From the IMG/VR virus record IMGVR_UViG_3300023179_000220, positions 1 through 41,009 of that record: a stretch of DNA of 41,009 bases; one strand, written 5' to 3'. How positions within the stretch are numbered: position 1 is the stretch's first letter; each line of letters opens with the position of its first letter. This document shows positions 4,516-17,623 of this stretch, one piece after another. Source of the DNA: a virus. The notes beneath the pieces were generated by a model. The model did not search any database and was not told the DNA's origin. It was given only the letters and a program-made list of their open reading frames with translations. Made by a program: the position numbers and the translations under genes.

Positions 4516-4758
4516 GTGATGATGGAGTGGATGGTGGTGCAGCTCAGTCTAGAGGAGCAGCTTGCACTCGAAGGCCAGAGCAGAATCGCCTTGAACTGCC
4601 CTGACCGTGAACAGGTCGCTAAATTATGCAGTAACTTAATAAAACAAAACGCACATCAATCTAAATTAATAAAGCAAGCTGTACATCATATAGCAGCTTT
4701 AGAAGCTACTTTATATCTTCAACAATCAAGACGCCCGTGGTGGAAACGTATATTCTGA
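4516..4758 (+). CDS. Small hypothetical protein, SLEEQLALE type
   Basis: Up to 80 residues; the core is QLSLEEQLALEGQSRIALNCPDREQVAKLCSNLIKQNAHQSKLIKQAVHHIAALE, an all-helical protein ending with a basic aromatic tail (RRPWWKRIF). The pattern QLSLEEQL...LC..LI.QN..Q..LI..A..HI..LE recalls a family of small proteins I associate with cyanophages; its function is unknown. The start is ambiguous: GTG 4516, ATG 4519, ATG 4531, GTG 4534 or GTG 4537. GGAG at 4524-4527 favours 4534 or 4537. Its last 33 bases overlap the end of the convergent sigma gene. Confidence 0.6.
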   Translation: MMMEWMVVQLSLEEQLALEGQSRIALNCPDREQVAKLCSNLIKQNAHQSKLIKQAVHHIAALEATLYLQQSRRPWWKRIF

Positions 4759-5592
4759 CATCATCTTACCTAACTTGCGATGCGCACTTGTCATCTTTTG
4801 CCTTATACGTTCGCGGCATACGTTATGATCCTTTGCAATTGCCGTAAAAGTTAAATCTTCATTGTAGCGTTTGTTTATTATATCTTGCTCTATATCAGTT
4901 AAATAAGATAACGCAAGCTGCACGTGTTCCTTGCTATGGTCCAAATCAAAATCAATATCCACCTCAGGGCTAGCAATTAAATCAAGCAATGAGTTGCCAT
5001 CATCTGTTATCAGTTCGTCTAAACTAATATGAACGCTATTGCAATCGACTAATGCTAATAATTGCTCTATTGTTAAACCCATAACTTGAGCTAATTCTGT
5101 TTTGCTTGGCTTGCGGCCATGTTCTTTCATGTATTCTGTTTCAATCTGTAATGCCTTAAACGTACGGTCTATCATATGAATCGGTATTTTTATCATGCGC
5201 TCCTTGCTATCAATAGCACGTTTCAATGATTGCCTAATCCACCAGTACGCATAGGTCGAAAACTTATACCCACGTGATGCGTCAAATTTTTCTGCTGCAC
5301 GTTGAAGGCCAATATTACCCTCCTGGCATAAATCCAACATATCCATTGATTTTATCCTTCCTGTATAACGCTTGGCAATATGCACAACCAAACGTAAATT
5401 GCAGTTTACCATGGTAGCCCGTGCCTTAAGGCCAGCTTTTATCAGCCGTTGCTCAGCAGGTGTTGGGCTAGTGTTATCGCGCAGCTCCATGTACTGCGCG
5501 ATTTTACGTGCCAACTGTATTTCCTGCTGTGTCGTGAGCAACGGATACCTAGAGATGGCCTCTAGGTAGTCGCGCATTGCATCAGCAGTCAT
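4726..5592 (-). CDS. Sigma-70 family RNA polymerase sigma factor (group 2-like)
   Basis: A 288-residue protein with full sigma-70 architecture: region 1.2 (residues about 6-36, MRDYLEAISRYPLLTTQQEIQLARKI), region 2 (about 60-130, with NLRLVVHIAKRY, DLCQEGNIGLQRAAEKFD and YKFSTYAYWWIRQ for core binding and -10 recognition), region 3 (about 132-200) and region 4 (about 225-280, with LTFTAIAKDHNVCRERIRQ as the -35 helix-turn-helix). There is no long region 1.1, as in group 2 factors. It should direct host RNA polymerase to a set of promoters, perhaps late ones. It is the last gene of the leftward operon, three bases after ssb, so it would be made with the early proteins. Complete, no missing region. 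It resembles a host-type sigma more than T4 gp55. Confidence 0.93.
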   Translation of the reverse strand: MTADAMRDYLEAISRYPLLTTQQEIQLARKIAQYMELRDNTSPTPAEQRLIKAGLKARATMVNCNLRLVVHIAKRYTGRIKSMDMLDLCQEGNIGLQRAAEKFDASRGYKFSTYAYWWIRQSLKRAIDSKERMIKIPIHMIDRTFKALQIETEYMKEHGRKPSKTELAQVMGLTIEQLLALVDCNSVHISLDELITDDGNSLLDLIASPEVDIDFDLDHSKEHVQLALSYLTDIEQDIINKRYNEDLTFTAIAKDHNVCRERIRQKMTSAHRKLGKMMSEYTFPPRAS

Positions 5593-10707: not shown

Positions 10708-10848
10708 TCCCATCCATTAGCAGTGCAGTTCACGCCAGAGCAGGTAGCGTGGCTGGACAGCCGCCGCGTAGCAGGTTTAACCCGTAGTGCCGTAATACGC
10801 CTTGTGGTTGAAGAAGCCATGCGGCAGGCCAAGCGCACACAGAAATGA
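10699..10848 (+). CDS. Ribbon-helix-helix (CopG/Arc-like) DNA-binding protein (49 aa)
   Basis: A GTG start at 10699 opens a 49-codon frame ending at TGA 10846-10848: VTLSHPLAVQFTPEQVAWLDSRRVAGLTRSAVIRLVVEEAMRQAKRTQK. The N-terminal strand (LAVQFTP), helix EQVAWLDSRR, and turn GLTRSAVIRLVVEEAM match the RHH fold (strand, helix, G.(S/T)R(S/A)..IR.....A). It should bind DNA as a dimer through the strand and act as a repressor. Its stop overlaps the primase ATG (ATGA), so the two are cotranslated. Opposite to it is only an antisense frame. Confidence 0.75.
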   Translation: MTLSHPLAVQFTPEQVAWLDSRRVAGLTRSAVIRLVVEEAMRQAKRTQK

Positions 10849-13283
10849 ATATTCAAGAACTCACTCAAGGCAGGTGGCCTGACCTGCTAATGCAACTTGC
10901 TGGCCTTACGCCAAATCAATTAACTGACAAGCACCAGCCATGCCCTTTATGTGGTGGTGAGGACCGCTACCGATTTGATGATCTAAATGGTACTGGCTCC
11001 TGGTACTGCAACCAATGCGGCGGTAAAGATCAATCCGGCGGTGCCGGAAGTGGTATGGATATGCTAATGCGTCGCACGAGTCTCACTTATCCTGAAGCCT
11101 GCAAGCTCATCGAGCAGCACTTAAATATCAAGCCTGAGCCGCCAACTAAAGGCGCCGAATATATTTGGCATTACTCCAGCACATTTATTGTTTGCCGCTT
11201 CCCAGGTAAACGACTCCGGCCTTTATGGTGGGATGGCTCGCAGTGGTTATGGAAAGCACCACCTGCACCGCGCCCGCTATACAACCTTGCAGCTATCGCC
11301 GCCAAAGTTGATGCACCTGTACTAATAGTTGAAGGCGAGAAAACCGCAGATGCAGCCGCCAAACTGTTCCCCTCAGCAGTGGCGATTACATGGCCAAGCG
11401 GTTGTAAAGCTATTGACAAAGCAGACTGGGCGCCACTAATAGGTCGCAACTGCACACTATGGCCTGATGCAGACGCCCCTGGCATCCAAGCTATGGATAA
11501 ATTATCAGCCAAATTACTTAAACTCGGCGCCGCTCAGGTGCGCATTGTCACACCACCACCAGACGTGCCTGACGGATGGGATCTAGCTGATGCACACTGG
11601 TCAATCGCAGAAGCCGCTGCATACCTTAAAGCCAACCGGTCTGCACTAACGGCACAACCGGAACTTGCACCGGAAGCCGCATCGGAACTCGCGCCAGTGA
11701 CAAAGGCAGACAAACTACCATTCCGTTGCTTAGGTTTTGATCGTGGGTCTTATTTTTATTTACCAACAAACGGCGGCCAAGTATTAGAACTTACCGCTTC
11801 ACAACACACTAAACTTAATCTCCTAAATCTTGCACCTCTTGGCTGGTGGAATGAAGCATATAAAAAAGGTACTGGCGCTGATTGGGATCGCGCCGCAGAT
11901 AGCCTTATCTCACTTTGTATGCAACAAGGCGTTTATGATCCAGATCGCGTTCGTGGACGCGGTGCTTGGTATGACAAAGGTCGCGTCATCGTTCACCTTG
12001 GTGATCGCCTAATTGTTGACAATAAAGAGCATCGCATTTGCTCACCACCACCAACTAATTATTTTTATGAACAAGCTAAAGCGCTTGATGGGCCAGACAA
12101 TAAGCCGCTTTCAGATGAGTTAGCTACCAAAATACGCAATATCGCTATAGGTTTTCGCTGGGAGATGCCTGTTAATGCTTATTTCCTTTTAGGTTGGACC
12201 GTCCTAGCGCCCGTATGCGGCGCCTTAGACTGGCGCCCACATGCCTGGATAACAGGTGCTGCTGGTACTGGGAAAACCTGCATCCTAAAAGATTTCCTTA
12301 AACCATTAATGGGTGGTATCTACCAAGGCGCAACAGGTGGCACCACTGAAGCTGGCCTCCGTGGCACATTATGCTCTGATGCAATACCTGTAATATTTGA
12401 TGAATTTGAACAAAATGATCAACGTGATAAACAAATTGTTCAAAATGTATTAGCACTTGCACGTATTGCATCATCTGAAGGTGGCAAAATTTATAAAGGC
12501 ACAACCACAGGCGGCGCTAACGCTTTTGAAATACGCAGCATGTTTTGCGTATCATCTATAAATGTTGCATTAATACAAAAAGCTGATGTTGATCGCTTTT
12601 GTGTCCTAGCACTTCGTAAAGACACCATACAAAAGCAAGAATGGACTGCCTTCGAGGCTGAAATAAAAACTACAATTACAATGGAAACTGGACGCCAATT
12701 AATAGCTAGAACTATACAAAATATACCTGTAATTAGATCTAATGCTAAAATATTAGCCAGGGCACTTGCTATTACTTTTGGCCAGCGTTACGGTGACCAA
12801 TATGGCACCCTACTTGCAGGCGCATGGTCTTTATCTTCTGATGGCGGTAAGTTATTGAGCATTGAAGAAGCATTAGAATGGATTAAAACTTTAGATTGGG
12901 AATCTAACCAGCTTGATCCACAAGAAGCTGATGAAGTTAAGTGCCTTGATTATATCCTTAATACTATGGTTGTTGTTGACCATAAACGTATTTCTATACG
13001 TGAAATTTTCTTAGCTGCACGGTTAGGCTCGTCTATCGGTGATGAACCGGCTGATCTGGTCCTTGCCCGTCATGGCATCAAATACCACGAAGGGGGCCTA
13101 GCCATAGCTAACACCCATAGCATTTTGCATGGCCTGTTACGTGATACACCATGGAGCGGTGGTGCCCATAAACAAGCTTTACAGCGGGTCAAAGGTGCCG
13201 CAAAAGTTGGCCCGATCCGTTTTGGGTCACACACTATGCGATGCACGTTAATTCCACTTGAAAATGCAGGCATCATTTCCTAA
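10845..13283 (+). CDS. Primase-helicase (zinc finger, Toprim, P-loop NTPase)
   Basis: 812 residues in three parts. Residues 33-58: zinc-binding CPLCGG...WYCNQCGG (C33, C36, C55, C58) followed by GGAGSGMDMLM, the P4-type primase finger. Residues about 155-240: Toprim-like VLIVEGEKTAD (E163) and WPDADAPG (208-213). Residues about 440-640: P-loop NTPase with WITGAAGTGKT (Walker A, 471-478), VIFDEFEQND (Walker B, 516-520) and a conserved SS at about 570. It primes DNA synthesis and unwinds the template. It lies next to the iteron cluster and, as no polymerase is present, host polymerase is the likely partner. The linker at 265-290 is Ala/Pro/Glu-rich. Confidence 0.9.
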   Translation: MNIQELTQGRWPDLLMQLAGLTPNQLTDKHQPCPLCGGEDRYRFDDLNGTGSWYCNQCGGKDQSGGAGSGMDMLMRRTSLTYPEACKLIEQHLNIKPEPPTKGAEYIWHYSSTFIVCRFPGKRLRPLWWDGSQWLWKAPPAPRPLYNLAAIAAKVDAPVLIVEGEKTADAAAKLFPSAVAITWPSGCKAIDKADWAPLIGRNCTLWPDADAPGIQAMDKLSAKLLKLGAAQVRIVTPPPDVPDGWDLADAHWSIAEAAAYLKANRSALTAQPELAPEAASELAPVTKADKLPFRCLGFDRGSYFYLPTNGGQVLELTASQHTKLNLLNLAPLGWWNEAYKKGTGADWDRAADSLISLCMQQGVYDPDRVRGRGAWYDKGRVIVHLGDRLIVDNKEHRICSPPPTNYFYEQAKALDGPDNKPLSDELATKIRNIAIGFRWEMPVNAYFLLGWTVLAPVCGALDWRPHAWITGAAGTGKTCILKDFLKPLMGGIYQGATGGTTEAGLRGTLCSDAIPVIFDEFEQNDQRDKQIVQNVLALARIASSEGGKIYKGTTTGGANAFEIRSMFCVSSINVALIQKADVDRFCVLALRKDTIQKQEWTAFEAEIKTTITMETGRQLIARTIQNIPVIRSNAKILARALAITFGQRYGDQYGTLLAGAWSLSSDGGKLLSIEEALEWIKTLDWESNQLDPQEADEVKCLDYILNTMVVVDHKRISIREIFLAARLGSSIGDEPADLVLARHGIKYHEGGLAIANTHSILHGLLRDTPWSGGAHKQALQRVKGAAKVGPIRFGSHTMRCTLIPLENAGIIS

Positions 13284-13322
13284 TTTCCCCAAACCGCCAG
13301 CAGGGCAATAAGTCTCGGCTTT

Positions 13323-13656
13323 GTAACAGATCGTTGCGTGTTACACCTTGTTACGGTGCTGTTACGCTGAGATCCCTTGCGCTGCAACCGTTGTCACGAT
13401 GTTACGCCTGTTACGCTAAAAACAAAACACAACCCCATAGAGATACATATACACATCCCCCCTCTCACACCCTTAGAGACACCCTCTCTATATATATATA
13501 TTTTATTTTAAAAAAAATGTAACAACGTAACAAACGCTGCGCTGCAAGGATTTTGGGCGTAACACGGACCGTAACAGGGCGTAACAAGCGTAACAGGCTT
13601 TTGTTGCGCAATATTAAGCAAAGTAGACCTAACTGCACTTGCTGGTTAGTGTTACG
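13323..13656. other. Candidate replication origin: opposed TGTTACG iterons around an AT-rich core
   Basis: This gene-free stretch (13284-13673) holds 13 copies of GTTAC/GTAAC. The left cluster reads TGTTAC at 13339, 13349, 13360, 13400 and 13409 (plus GTAACA at 13323). The right cluster reads the reverse complement, GTAACA, at 13519, 13527, 13559, 13571, 13581 and 13590. One more TGTTACG is at 13650. Spacing within clusters is mostly 9-12 bases, about a helical turn. Between them are a pyrimidine-rich stretch and 30 bases of pure A/T (13489-13518). Iterons plus a melting element beside the primase-helicase fit an origin. Operator function is the alternative. Confidence 0.62.
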
Positions 13657-13673
13657 TTGCCTATGCTTATTAA

Positions 13674-13868
13674 GTGGTGCTTATTATTTCTGAACGCAAC
13701 CGCCCCTGCATCGACCGACTAGACGCATTAATGGCTGAAGCCGTGGCGGTAGCAAATGCCATCCGCGACAATGCCCAAGACGAGCAGCAACCCATACCGC
13801 CTGAACTGGTCTATAGCTTCAGCCGCGACTACGATAAAATTATTACCGCTCTATCGGATGCGTCATGA
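13674..13868 (+). CDS. Small hypothetical protein (64 aa)
   Basis: Starts at GTG 13674 or the adjacent GTG 13677. The product (ISERNRPCIDRLDALMAEAVAVANAIRDNAQDEQQPIPPELVYSFSRDYDKIITALSDAS) is a helical, acidic protein with no recognised domain. Its stop overlaps the next gene as ATGA, which argues that it is translated. It is the first gene after the origin candidate. Confidence 0.6.
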   Translation: MVLIISERNRPCIDRLDALMAEAVAVANAIRDNAQDEQQPIPPELVYSFSRDYDKIITALSDAS

Positions 13869-14620
13869 GTATTAGTTTTAATGGTCAAAAGCTAGATCGT
13901 GAGCTTGACCTTATTGTAAGAGTTCAATTACCATTTTTAGCTGCTGTTACCGTTAATCGTCTTGGCACCGTCGTTCGTCAGGCATTGCAGCATGAAATGA
14001 AAGATTCTTTTAAAAGCCTCAGTGCATTTACTTATAAATCTCCGCTATATCGCCATCTTGCAACTAAAGCGCAACCGTATACAACTATTTATTTACGTGA
14101 TGAAGCAACTAAAGGTCAGCCGCCTTCAACTTATTTGTTACCGCAAATCCTTGGTGGTATGGTATACAAAACTAGATTTCAAGAACGCTTAGCTTCACAG
14201 TTATCAAATTACAATGGTAGGTATATGTTCCCATTACATGAATCACCAGCAGCTAAGCGCAACCAGCAAGGTCGCATACGTGCATCGCAATACGTTGAGG
14301 CGTTATATGGCATCAAGGCATTTGAAGACATCAGGGCATCTATGCGACCTGGTAGATACCGCACTGAAGGCAGCCACGTCTACGTGCCCTATGTGGGGGG
14401 CAGGAAGGAGCTTGCAAAGGTCTATAGGGCTATCGGTAAGGGACAAATGCCTCAGCCGGGCATATACCGCGTTAAAAGCGGCAACCTGACGCAATTGTTC
14501 AGGCAGCTTGAAGCAGTGCCATCAGTGCAAAAAAGTTTTGATTTTAATTATGCTGCTGAAGTGGCGGTGCAAGCTAATGCGGGCGCGATATTTGACGCGG
14601 CAGTCAAACAATTTGTCTAA
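13865..14620 (+). CDS. Putative phage virion-associated protein, family uncertain
   Basis: 251 residues. The middle part FTYKSPLYRHLATKAQPYTTIYLRDEATKGQPPSTYLLPQILGGMVYKTRFQERLAS follows a pattern I associate with uncharacterised phage structural genes (T...SL...PATKA....V...D...KGTP.S.YL.PQI.GG....KRFE..L), later giving Y..P..ES...N..G.I..SQ. I would expect a minor head or tail component (tail completion), but it sits far upstream of the terminase and no experiment supports a role. It is coupled by ATGA to the preceding gene and followed by a terminator candidate. Confidence 0.6.
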   Translation: MSISFNGQKLDRELDLIVRVQLPFLAAVTVNRLGTVVRQALQHEMKDSFKSLSAFTYKSPLYRHLATKAQPYTTIYLRDEATKGQPPSTYLLPQILGGMVYKTRFQERLASQLSNYNGRYMFPLHESPAAKRNQQGRIRASQYVEALYGIKAFEDIRASMRPGRYRTEGSHVYVPYVGGRKELAKVYRAIGKGQMPQPGIYRVKSGNLTQLFRQLEAVPSVQKSFDFNYAAEVAVQANAGAIFDAAVKQFV

Positions 14621-14662: not shown

Positions 14663-14727
14663 ACACACGGCTGCAAGGTGGTTTAAGGTATTATTTTTCG
14701 ACGCAAATATATAAAAAAGTGGTCTCT

Positions 14728-14791
14728 AGTACTAACGTACTATAGTACATTTGTATCATAGTACACACGTACTATAGTACATTTGTACTAG
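14728..14791. repeat. Tandem 32-bp repeat built of eight GTAC octamers
   Basis: The gap 14621-15057 has no convincing gene. From 14728, GTAC recurs every 8 bases: 14729, 14737, 14745, (GTAT at 14753), 14761, 14769, 14777 and 14785. The eight octamers form two 32-bp units (14728-14759 and 14760-14791) that share a 21-base identical stretch starting ACGTACTATAGTAC. More GTAC pairs follow at 14847/14855 (again 8 apart) and at 14917/14931. Each site is a palindrome. This looks like a multi-site protein-binding array, maybe controlling the gene at 15058. It is not CRISPR: there are no spacers of the right size. Confidence 0.75.
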
Positions 14792-14804
14792 TGTTATAAC
14801 ATTA

Positions 14805-14849
14805 TACTATTGTGCCGTTATATTGTTATATAACAGTGCCGCAATAGTA
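14805..14849. repeat. Large interrupted inverted repeat beside the GTAC array
   Basis: TACTATTG (14805-14812) pairs with CAATAGTA (14842-14849), and inside it GTTATA (14817-14822) pairs with TATAAC (14829-14834), leaving an internal loop (TGCC against AGTGCCG) and a 6-base apex. The outer arm touches a GTAC site. It could form a hairpin in RNA or a cruciform, or be a composite operator. The remaining gap to 15057 also has a short AGCGC/GCGCT hairpin at 15015-15030. Confidence 0.55.
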
Positions 14850-15057
14850 CCAATGTACTAGTAAGAATGGTTCCCATTGTCAAGTCGGTGCGCCTATGCA
14901 TCGGCGCCTTTGAATAGTACACCTCCTATAGTACAGTTGGGCTATTGTTAAGAAATATAAACTTTTGGCGGCTAATTGCTAGCTATTGGCTGAATTTGGT
15001 CTATGTTGACGCCGAGCGCAATCCAGCGCTTAATTATTCCAACCGCTTTTAATTCAC

Positions 15058-15636
15058 ATGGGCCGCTACTTAAACCGCTGTTTAGTTGCCACTAAAAACC
15101 CTGCCGGCCACGGATTCTTAGATCATTCAGCGCCGGCCGCATGGCTAGGGCAGCACTTAGCAGTTACCCCGCCACCGGGCAAGGATTACCTGTTCGCCAC
15201 TGTTCCCGGTTGTTGGACTATTACCCACCGCGGTTGCGGTTGGGCATTAGCAACGCTTCGCTGTTCACTTAAAACAGCGGTAAAGCTTGCTAAGGAATGG
15301 GATCAACGGGCCGGCAGTATTGATCCTTTGGACTCTAAATCCTGGCAATATTGCCAGTTATGGGGTAAAGCGGTTCAAGCGATTAATTGCCCTTGGCAGA
15401 GTATTGATGCAGAGGACCACGGCGAGACCGCGGCAATATTGGCCGCCGACCGTGGCTTGTCTATTGATCAGGCTGGAAACCATAAAAGGATCCAATGGCG
15501 CGGTAAGTATTGGCCAGCCCCTACGGATGCAGAATTAGAAGGTTGGACCGTTGACAGCGTATGCGAAACCCCAGATGGCCGCATAGTTGAACCGGATAAT
15601 TCGGAGAGTTGGCTAACTATTCTCGGGTTGGTTTAA
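15058..15636 (+). CDS. Hypothetical protein, accessory module gene 1 (192 aa)
   Basis: 192 residues rich in Trp and Cys. The segment FATVPGCWTITHRGCGWALATLRCSLKTAVKLAKEWDQRAGSIDPLDSKSW recalls small phage and plasmid proteins of the type 'W.(I/V)TH...G......S...A...A..L......W', none with a known role. There is no ribosome binding site, as for many genes here. Codon use is slightly more G/C-rich than that of the helicase. It begins the short run that ends at the terminator 16875-16900. I do not recognise it. Confidence 0.65.
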   Translation: MGRYLNRCLVATKNPAGHGFLDHSAPAAWLGQHLAVTPPPGKDYLFATVPGCWTITHRGCGWALATLRCSLKTAVKLAKEWDQRAGSIDPLDSKSWQYCQLWGKAVQAINCPWQSIDAEDHGETAAILAADRGLSIDQAGNHKRIQWRGKYWPAPTDAELEGWTVDSVCETPDGRIVEPDNSESWLTILGLV

Positions 15637-16427: not shown

Positions 16428-16849
16428 CAACTCCCAAACAAGCATTCATCAACGCCAACCCAACCTATCAGCAACTGTATCAAAACTACTGCAATGCTAA
16501 TGATGCATTGAGTAGCCTTAACTCTCAGTGCTTAGATGCTAGCTATGCCATCCAAAGGCTACTTATAGCAAGGGATCTGGTAGACAATGCTAGACAATCT
16601 GCCGAGCATTGTGACACTTCCGAATCGAACCAAATTGAAGCTTTGACTGGTAACTGTTCGGATGGTTGGGATTCTGCTCTGTTCGCTACATACAAGCTAT
16701 TGTCTGAGCTTATATATACCAATTGCGAGGAGATCAGCTCGCATCGCCAGGCCATCCCACCGGCAGAGCAAAGCAGATCACAAGCGTTGGAGTTATTAGA
16801 CATTACAAGCCGACAATTAGGGGAGGAGTTTAACAATTTAGCAAGCTAA
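16424..16849 (+). CDS. Hypothetical coiled-coil-like protein, accessory module gene 3 (141 aa)
   Basis: 141 residues, largely helical, Ser/Asn/Gln-rich with five Cys. Helices such as YNYCNANDALSSLNSQCLDASYAIQRLLIARDLVDNARQSAEHC and ISSHRQAIPPAEQSRSQALELLDITSRQLGEEF suggest a helical bundle. Start ATG 16424 overlaps the previous stop (ATGA). No family recognised. It is the last gene before a good terminator. Confidence 0.6.
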   Translation: MTTPKQAFINANPTYQQLYQNYCNANDALSSLNSQCLDASYAIQRLLIARDLVDNARQSAEHCDTSESNQIEALTGNCSDGWDSALFATYKLLSELIYTNCEEISSHRQAIPPAEQSRSQALELLDITSRQLGEEFNNLAS

Positions 16850-16900: not shown

Positions 16901-16913
16901 ATTAGAAACAATA

Positions 16914-16961
16914 TTGCATTATCGTTATATAATTGTATTGCATTATCGTTATATAATTGTA
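16914..16961. repeat. Two perfect tandem 24-bp repeats, each with TATAAT
   Basis: A 24-base unit beginning TTGCATTATCGTTATATAAT is repeated without a gap (16914-16937 and 16938-16961), followed by a third start (TTGC) that breaks off. Each unit carries TATAAT (16928-16933 and 16952-16957). The TTGCAT boxes are only 8 bases before them, so a normal sigma-70 spacing is not met; -10 elements for another sigma, or operator sites, are possible. It lies upstream of the terminase genes. Confidence 0.7.
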
Positions 16962-16982
16962 TTGCCACAAAATATTAGGGTC

Positions 16983-17128: not shown

Positions 17129-17623
17129 TTGTTAATAACGTTTTCAGAATTAGCGGCAATTAAGGGATGCTCAAAAGCAGCAGTTACCCATGCGTGTAAA
17201 TCACGTATTGCAGCAGCAGTTGTAGAAGAAAATGGCAAACGCTACGTTGATAGAGACATGGCGCTAGAATTATGGAATCGTAATACACTAAGAACATATA
17301 GCGCAAAGGTAAGCGCACCAGACGACGTAAAGCTTAGCGACGATCAAATCCCTGAGCTTAACATAAGCAGGGAGCGGCGCGAGCATTACCAAGCAGAATT
17401 AGCAAAACTACAGGTTTCACAGCAACGTAAGGAGTTGTTACCAGCGGAAGATATTAAGAAGCAAGCATTTCAGCTTGGCCGTACTATCCGCGAGGCATTA
17501 GCTAATTTGGCTGATAGGCTTAGCCACCAGTTAGCTGGTGAGACTGACCCAACAGTGATCCATAAGTTATTGAGTGATGAACACCGTGCAGCACTGATGG
17601 AGCTAAGTGATGACGATCTATAG
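17129..17623 (+). CDS. Terminase small subunit (Nu1-like)
   Basis: 164 residues. N-terminal helix-turn-helix (ITFSELAAIKGCSKAAVTHACKSRIAAAVVEENGKRYVDRDMALELW) that would bind the packaging site, then a charged coiled coil (about 80-115, ISRERREHYQAELAKLQVSQQRKELLPAEDIKKQAF) and a helical tail (IREALANLADRLSHQLAGETDPTVIHKLLSDEHRAALMEL). This fits Nu1-type small terminases. The frame has only TTG 17129 near its start (TAA at 17120), so it probably uses TTG; upstream is a palindrome. It overlaps the large subunit by 14 bases. Confidence 0.83.
   Translation: MLITFSELAAIKGCSKAAVTHACKSRIAAAVVEENGKRYVDRDMALELWNRNTLRTYSAKVSAPDDVKLSDDQIPELNISRERREHYQAELAKLQVSQQRKELLPAEDIKKQAFQLGRTIREALANLADRLSHQLAGETDPTVIHKLLSDEHRAALMELSDDDL

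Follow-up and report, generated by a model that had tools for sequence, protein, structure and literature searches.

The intergenic region directly downstream of the primase-helicase gene in the virus record IMGVR_UViG_3300023179_000220 is very probably a replication origin at which that primase-helicase acts as initiator, with rings loaded on both sides and synthesis proceeding in both directions; we put the probability of this reading at about 0.87. Two arrays of a short iteron, in opposed orientations, flank a pure A/T core, and the same layout recurs in dozens of relatives while the iteron word changes. Judging from the sequences of roughly 100 relatives, the helicase apparently recognizes its own origin through a simple, decodable code that involves one or two residues of its tail. 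The DNA analyzed, hereafter the window, is the entire IMG/VR record of 41,009 bp.

Mirror-image iteron arrays flank an A/T core

The preliminary description of this DNA reported at least five TGTTAC copies opposed to six GTAACA copies around a 30-bp A/T core. Exact positions bear this out, with five TGTTAC hexamers on the left (starts 13339, 13349, 13360, 13400 and 13409), six GTAACA hexamers on the right (starts 13519, 13527, 13559, 13571, 13581 and 13590), and a pure A/T run of exactly 30 bp at 13489–13518, the longest such run in the window (Table 1). Spacing, given earlier as mostly 9–12 bases, is 8–12 bp within clusters and is interrupted by a 40-bp gap (13360 to 13400) and a 32-bp gap (13527 to 13559), each filled by a conserved element, box B. 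The placement just after the primase-helicase gene also holds, with the first iteron 40 bp past the stop codon. The left copy of box B lies within an inverted repeat, I1, of 46 nt at 72%. Box B is a second mirrored element, one that the preliminary description missed, and many relatives retain it despite having a different iteron word.

The clustering of the heptamer is real and non-random. The exact sequences TGTTACG and CGTAACA occur 15 times in the 41 kb, nine of them inside 300 bp; among 20 simulated order-2 Markov genomes of equal length, the maximum number of copies of any heptamer per 300 bp was 4–6. The window contains only one dense cluster of the iteron word.

Table 1. Coordinates of the putative origin and of the probable initiator gene in the window
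Feature	Position	Strand	Remarks
Intergenic putative origin region, whole	13284–13673		From the primase-helicase stop (13283) to the next plausible gene; homologous region lies 3' of the primase in relatives
Outermost left iteron GTAACA	13323–13328	+	Direction opposite to neighbors
Left distal iteron cluster	13339–13366	-	TGTTACA 13339, TGTTACG 13349, TGTTACG 13360
Box B, left copy, GAGATCCCTTGCGCTGCAA	13369–13387	+	Present in relatives inspected; within inverted repeat I1
Left inner iteron array	13392–13415	-	Degenerate TGTCACG 13392–13398, TGTTACG 13400, TGTTACG 13409
Predicted melting core	13483–13518	+	CTCTCT, then 30 bp A/T; A/T core adjoins right pair in relatives
Right inner iteron pair abutting A/T core	13519–13532	+	GTAACA 13519, CGTAACA 13526; hexamer starts 8 bp apart
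Box B, right copy, inverted, GCTGCGCTGCAAGGATTTTGGG	13536–13557	-	Inverted repeat; also in relatives
Right distal iteron cluster	13558–13595	+	CGTAACA at 13558, 13570, 13580, 13589
Outlying TGTTACG, array membership uncertain	13650–13656	-	Opposite to neighbors; position not kept in aligned relatives
Primase-helicase gene, probable initiator	10845–13283	+	812 aa; Pfam, PHROG, structure model and PDB comparison
C-terminal winged helix, probable iteron reader	12912–13280	+	Residues 690–812; model pLDDT 93; weak VIA matches
Beta-hairpin wing, AKVGPIRFGSHTMRCTLIP	13200–13256	+	Residues 786–804; holds the columns that covary most strongly with each of the three variable word positions

The primase-helicase carries a SaPI/SCCmec-like helicase core and a C-terminal winged helix

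The gene upstream of the array encodes, in order, a zinc ribbon (Pfam PF08273, E 2e-13), a DnaG-like TOPRIM primase (residues 94–270 in the structure model), an AAA+ helicase with the Walker A motif GAAGTGKT, and a C-terminal winged helix; the protein matches the DNA primase family phrog_35358 (E 6e-120). Comparison of the model with PDB structures places the helicase core close to SCCmec Cch (Z 14.5 over 336 residues) and SaPI5 PriRep1 (Z 14.0 over 311 residues). The C-terminal model gives weak VIA matches, all below Z 8, to the SaPIBov1 Rep C-terminus (8tch, Z 5.2), TcpK (Z 4.8), Cch (Z 3.0) and PriRep1 (Z 3.0). A Foldseek search with the C-terminus alone returned no match at E below 0.001, and the P4 origin-binding domain is absent from the fold matches listed for this domain, which is evidence neither way. 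Within the C-terminal domain, P790 and R792 (codon 13218–13220) are the wing residues coupled to the iteron word. The preliminary description saw no initiator of a known family and left the binding protein unassigned; the Cch/PriRep1-like AAA+ core, together with a wing that covaries with the word, instead makes the primase-helicase the probable initiator.

Neighboring minus-strand genes encode a helicase, a VRR nuclease, an exonuclease, a RecT-like annealing protein, an SSB and a sigma factor, placing the array in a replication module. The RNA polymerase sigma-factor-like gene (window 4726–5592; phrog_351, E 3e-74) belongs to the minus-strand early block.

Relatives keep the layout and change the word

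The relatives comprise an initial 80 viral ones, followed by those from further scans, host genomes and named phages. Among close relatives, almost every one carries a dense repeat cluster within 700 nt on the 3' side of the primase-helicase gene, and the mirror layout directly 3' of the homologous gene is shared by most relatives found. In 57 loci aligned on the iteron pair beside the A/T core, the core adjoins the right pair, which lies at 0 and +8/9; one inverted copy lies near +50, the right-type copies occupy +60 to +85, and the left-type copies fall at -125 to -95. A pair with 8–9 bp start-to-start spacing beside the core is found in most relatives. This supports the earlier suggestion of a two-sided replication origin: dozens of relatives share the layout despite differences in the word.

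Words, assigned with orientation-aware calls, include GTAACA, GTGACA, GTTACA, GTCACA, GTAAGA, GTTAGG, GTGAGA, GGGACA, GCAACA, GTATGA and others. Their common form is G-T-x-A-y-z, with any base at x, C, G or T at y, and mostly A or G at z. The second base is altered in some lineages (GGGACA, GGAACA, GGTACA, GCAACA), as is the fourth in others (GTATGA, GTATGG). One locus, L335, has in the 330 nt that follow its primase gene a left array of GTGAGA, which fits its wing residues SIYF, and a right array of GTTACA; it is either an assembly chimera or the product of recombination inside the A/T core, and because its left and right words disagree it was excluded from the statistics.

Two cultured phages carry the array, Synechococcus phage S-H1 (GTTAGG) and Bdellovibrio phage phi1422 (GTAACA); a scan based on phi1422 returned phi1422 alone. 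An array beside the primase gene is absent in the named relatives ZRG1, PBb001, Dolphis, ST4 and Mwe-JY13. The origin can apparently move relative to the gene: in Acinetobacter phage Acjo_20 a GTTACA array precedes the primase gene (L089:1450–1950), and in Serratia phage MQ-4 a GTAACA array follows that gene at a distance of about 1.7 kb (L087:6200–6600). Host genome contigs with closer relatives are mostly from Cyanobium and Synechococcus, which suggests prophages or satellites in picocyanobacteria; some of these relatives (among L362–L402) carry arrays. The preliminary description also proposed GC-skew analysis. The window's skew minimum falls close to the array, at 14293, but the minima of S-H1 and phi1422 lie at unrelated places, and GC skew is thus uninformative here.

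Wing residues covary with the iteron word

Every variable protein column was scored for its prediction of bases x, y and z. The best column for both y and z is residue 792 and the best for x is residue 790, both on the wing. In a first set of 61 proteins, R792 occurs with C in 33 of 33 cases. In an extended set of 94 non-redundant proteins that includes remote ones, R or K at 792 occurs with C at the fifth base in 60 of 63, and W, Y or H with a base other than C in 31 of 31; W792 always occurs with G then G, and K790 with G as second base (8/8). Three remote relatives with 42% identity or less (L092, L404 and L417) break the R-to-C rule. Residue 790 explains x only in part, as L064 and L076 differ in x and have identical residues 790–793. 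An arginine opposite C faces the G of the complementary strand, and of all contacts between arginine and a base this is the most common.

Raw counts of this kind overstate the support, since related sequences on the tree share both traits, and word and wing might covary through shared phylogeny alone while another protein is the true reader. Several observations make this scarcely probable. First, the tree used only residues preceding 686, which kept the wing from shaping it, and along its branches the base changes 14 times and the residue 13 times. Nine independent contrasts give on average 7.5 in agreement, 1.5 without difference and none opposed (median p=0.0078). Second, columns that share the same phylogeny perform worse; agreement at 792 is 0.968, whereas among 264 helicase columns given an optimized split the highest value is 0.872. 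Third, pairs with nearly identical helicases differ in wing and word alike: L271 and L281 (helicases 94% identical) have GTAAGA with PTHF and GTAACA with PTRF, L048 and L078 (94%) have GTAACA with VTRF and GTCAGA with TVYF, and L034 and L066 (96%) have GTTAGG with AVWF and GTGAGG with SIWF. Fourth, loci held out of the first derivation obey the rule nearly throughout, among them L118 (Y, GTATGA), L128 (W, GTATGG) and L418 (Y, GTAAGA), the last with at most 43% identity to any earlier protein. On balance, we favor the view that in this phage family two to three wing residues set the iteron word, and that specificity has switched often among about 15 words in a manner that can be predicted from sequence.

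The covariation also bears on the possibility that the repeats are operators of a separate repressor, such as an omega/CopG-like ribbon-helix-helix (RHH) protein, and form no origin. Omega-type RHH proteins recognize heptads whether these are direct or inverted, and in 15 of the 94 relatives with an array (L028, L042, L070 and others) the first gene after it is small and RHH-like. However, an RHH-like ORF adjacent to the array is absent in the remaining 79, the window included, and the wing residues of the primase-helicase track the word better than any helicase column tested. Irregular spacing, a 30-bp A/T core and a SaPI-like layout suit an origin rather than an operator, and promoter-like matches in the 13284–13673 region are few and weak. 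We regard the repressor reading as very improbable, and an RHH protein as main reader was dropped on the basis of its poor linkage to the array. The next gene in the window (13674–13868) resembles the second gene of an RHH-headed block in relatives.

Comparison with known replication systems

SaPI and SCCmec origins already provide examples of both the layout and the mechanism proposed here. SaPI Rep and Cch2 bind, through a C-terminal domain, iterons just downstream of their own gene (PMC7581432). The SaPI Rep/PriRep origins share with the present system opposed repeats, an origin directly downstream of the gene and, probably, C-terminal specificity (PMC7581432, PMC9894130), and their opposite repeat orientations are proposed to direct two head-to-head hexameric helicases (PMC9894130), the scheme we propose here. 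The two-sided layout that the preliminary description set apart from typical iteron origins is therefore confirmed as to its opposed arrays, but it has a precedent in SaPIs. A classic one-direction iteron origin of the plasmid or lambda type was rejected, as the arrays are opposed.

Unlike SaPIs, the genomes studied here are tailed phages, environmental and largely aquatic; their primase is a DnaG-like zinc ribbon plus TOPRIM fused to the helicase, a mirrored box B is present, and the iteron words are different. SCCmec Cch and Cch2 share the AAA+ core and, probably, a C-terminal domain that acts on an iteron site just downstream (PMC7581432), but the iterons of Cch2 are three direct repeats of AAGTG and its primase-polymerase is a separate protein, in contrast to the two opposed arrays and fused primase found here. 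The window shows an AAA+ (D5/MCM-like) core, an origin-like region just downstream, and iterons flanking an A/T core in opposite orientations, as SaPI and SCCmec systems do. Sequence homology to Rep, PriRep or Cch was not detectable, as phmmer with the whole protein against all PDB chains gave no match at E 0.1; we therefore describe the system as one that works like those of SaPI and SCCmec and do not file it as a member.

The P4 alpha protein also has a zinc-ribbon primase fused to a helicase, and its crr element lies directly 3' of the alpha gene with type 1 repeats in both orientations. It is conceivable that the primase-helicase binds the origin here but that a P4-type, crr-like cis element, or host DnaA or some other opener, takes part in place of direct bilateral self-loading; the conserved, mirrored box B, which suggests that a second factor may bind, is consistent with this. 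We consider such an arrangement unlikely. P4 has a separate ori and crr, far apart and both with iterons, whereas the window has a single dense cluster and no second one. Moreover, similarity to P4 alpha by BLASTP is confined to the zinc ribbon (56% over 54 aa), with no significant match in the helicase, the C-terminus or elsewhere. Membership in the P4 type was accordingly rejected beyond the zinc ribbon.

Two further systems are informative. TcpK of plasmid pCW3, likewise a winged helix, places its beta-wing in the major groove to read tandem nonamers (PMC6137059), although it is an accessory conjugation protein that acts at oriT and has no helicase. Covariation between initiator residues and iteron bases has been described for the iteron-related domain of geminivirus Rep (Arguello-Astorga and Ruiz-Medrano 2001, as cited in PMC6669703), but that protein is a rolling-circle HUH initiator of plant ssDNA viruses, and protein and origin are unrelated to those considered here. 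The open-access literature searched contained no earlier description of this phage origin family or of a wing-to-iteron code.

Proposed mechanism and significance

The SaPI/SCCmec precedent and the covariation on the beta-wing, the part with which TcpK reads DNA, suggest that the primase-helicase serves as its own origin-binding protein. The C-terminal winged helix would read GTAACA through its beta-wing, where R792 probably touches the G paired with the fifth base, C. Primase-helicase molecules may take up opposite orientations as they assemble on the two arrays, and the A/T core between the arrays would melt. Two AAA+ rings could then load facing opposite ways, and the origin would fire bidirectionally, with synthesis started by the TOPRIM primase domains of the helicases themselves.

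This scheme predicts an origin and an initiator for many phages, including the cultured S-H1 and phi1422, and would extend head-to-head self-loading helicases from SaPIs to tailed phages. The relatives also form a natural data set of about 100 protein-origin pairs with more than 15 words for direct tests of the rules of origin recognition by a beta-wing, including near-identical pairs in which the proteins differ at one or two residues and the words at one or two bases. Frequent changes of word may avoid cross-talk between co-infecting phages. Alternatively, they may help to evade nucleases directed at origins; one of these, Odn, cleaves PLE origins at the iterons, and mutation of the origin lets PLEs escape it (PMC8263062).

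Other repeats in the window

Two other repeat loci lie downstream. At 14726–14945 there is a second, different repeat array of about five copies of a palindrome resembling TAGTACNNNNGTACTA, three of them 16 bp apart, within the gap that precedes the gene at 15058; it looks like an operator or a partition-type site for a dimeric protein. At 16912–16965, between a gene ending at 16849 and one starting at 17129, lies a perfect 24-bp tandem repeat, TATTGCATTATCGTTATATAATTG, in 2.2 copies.
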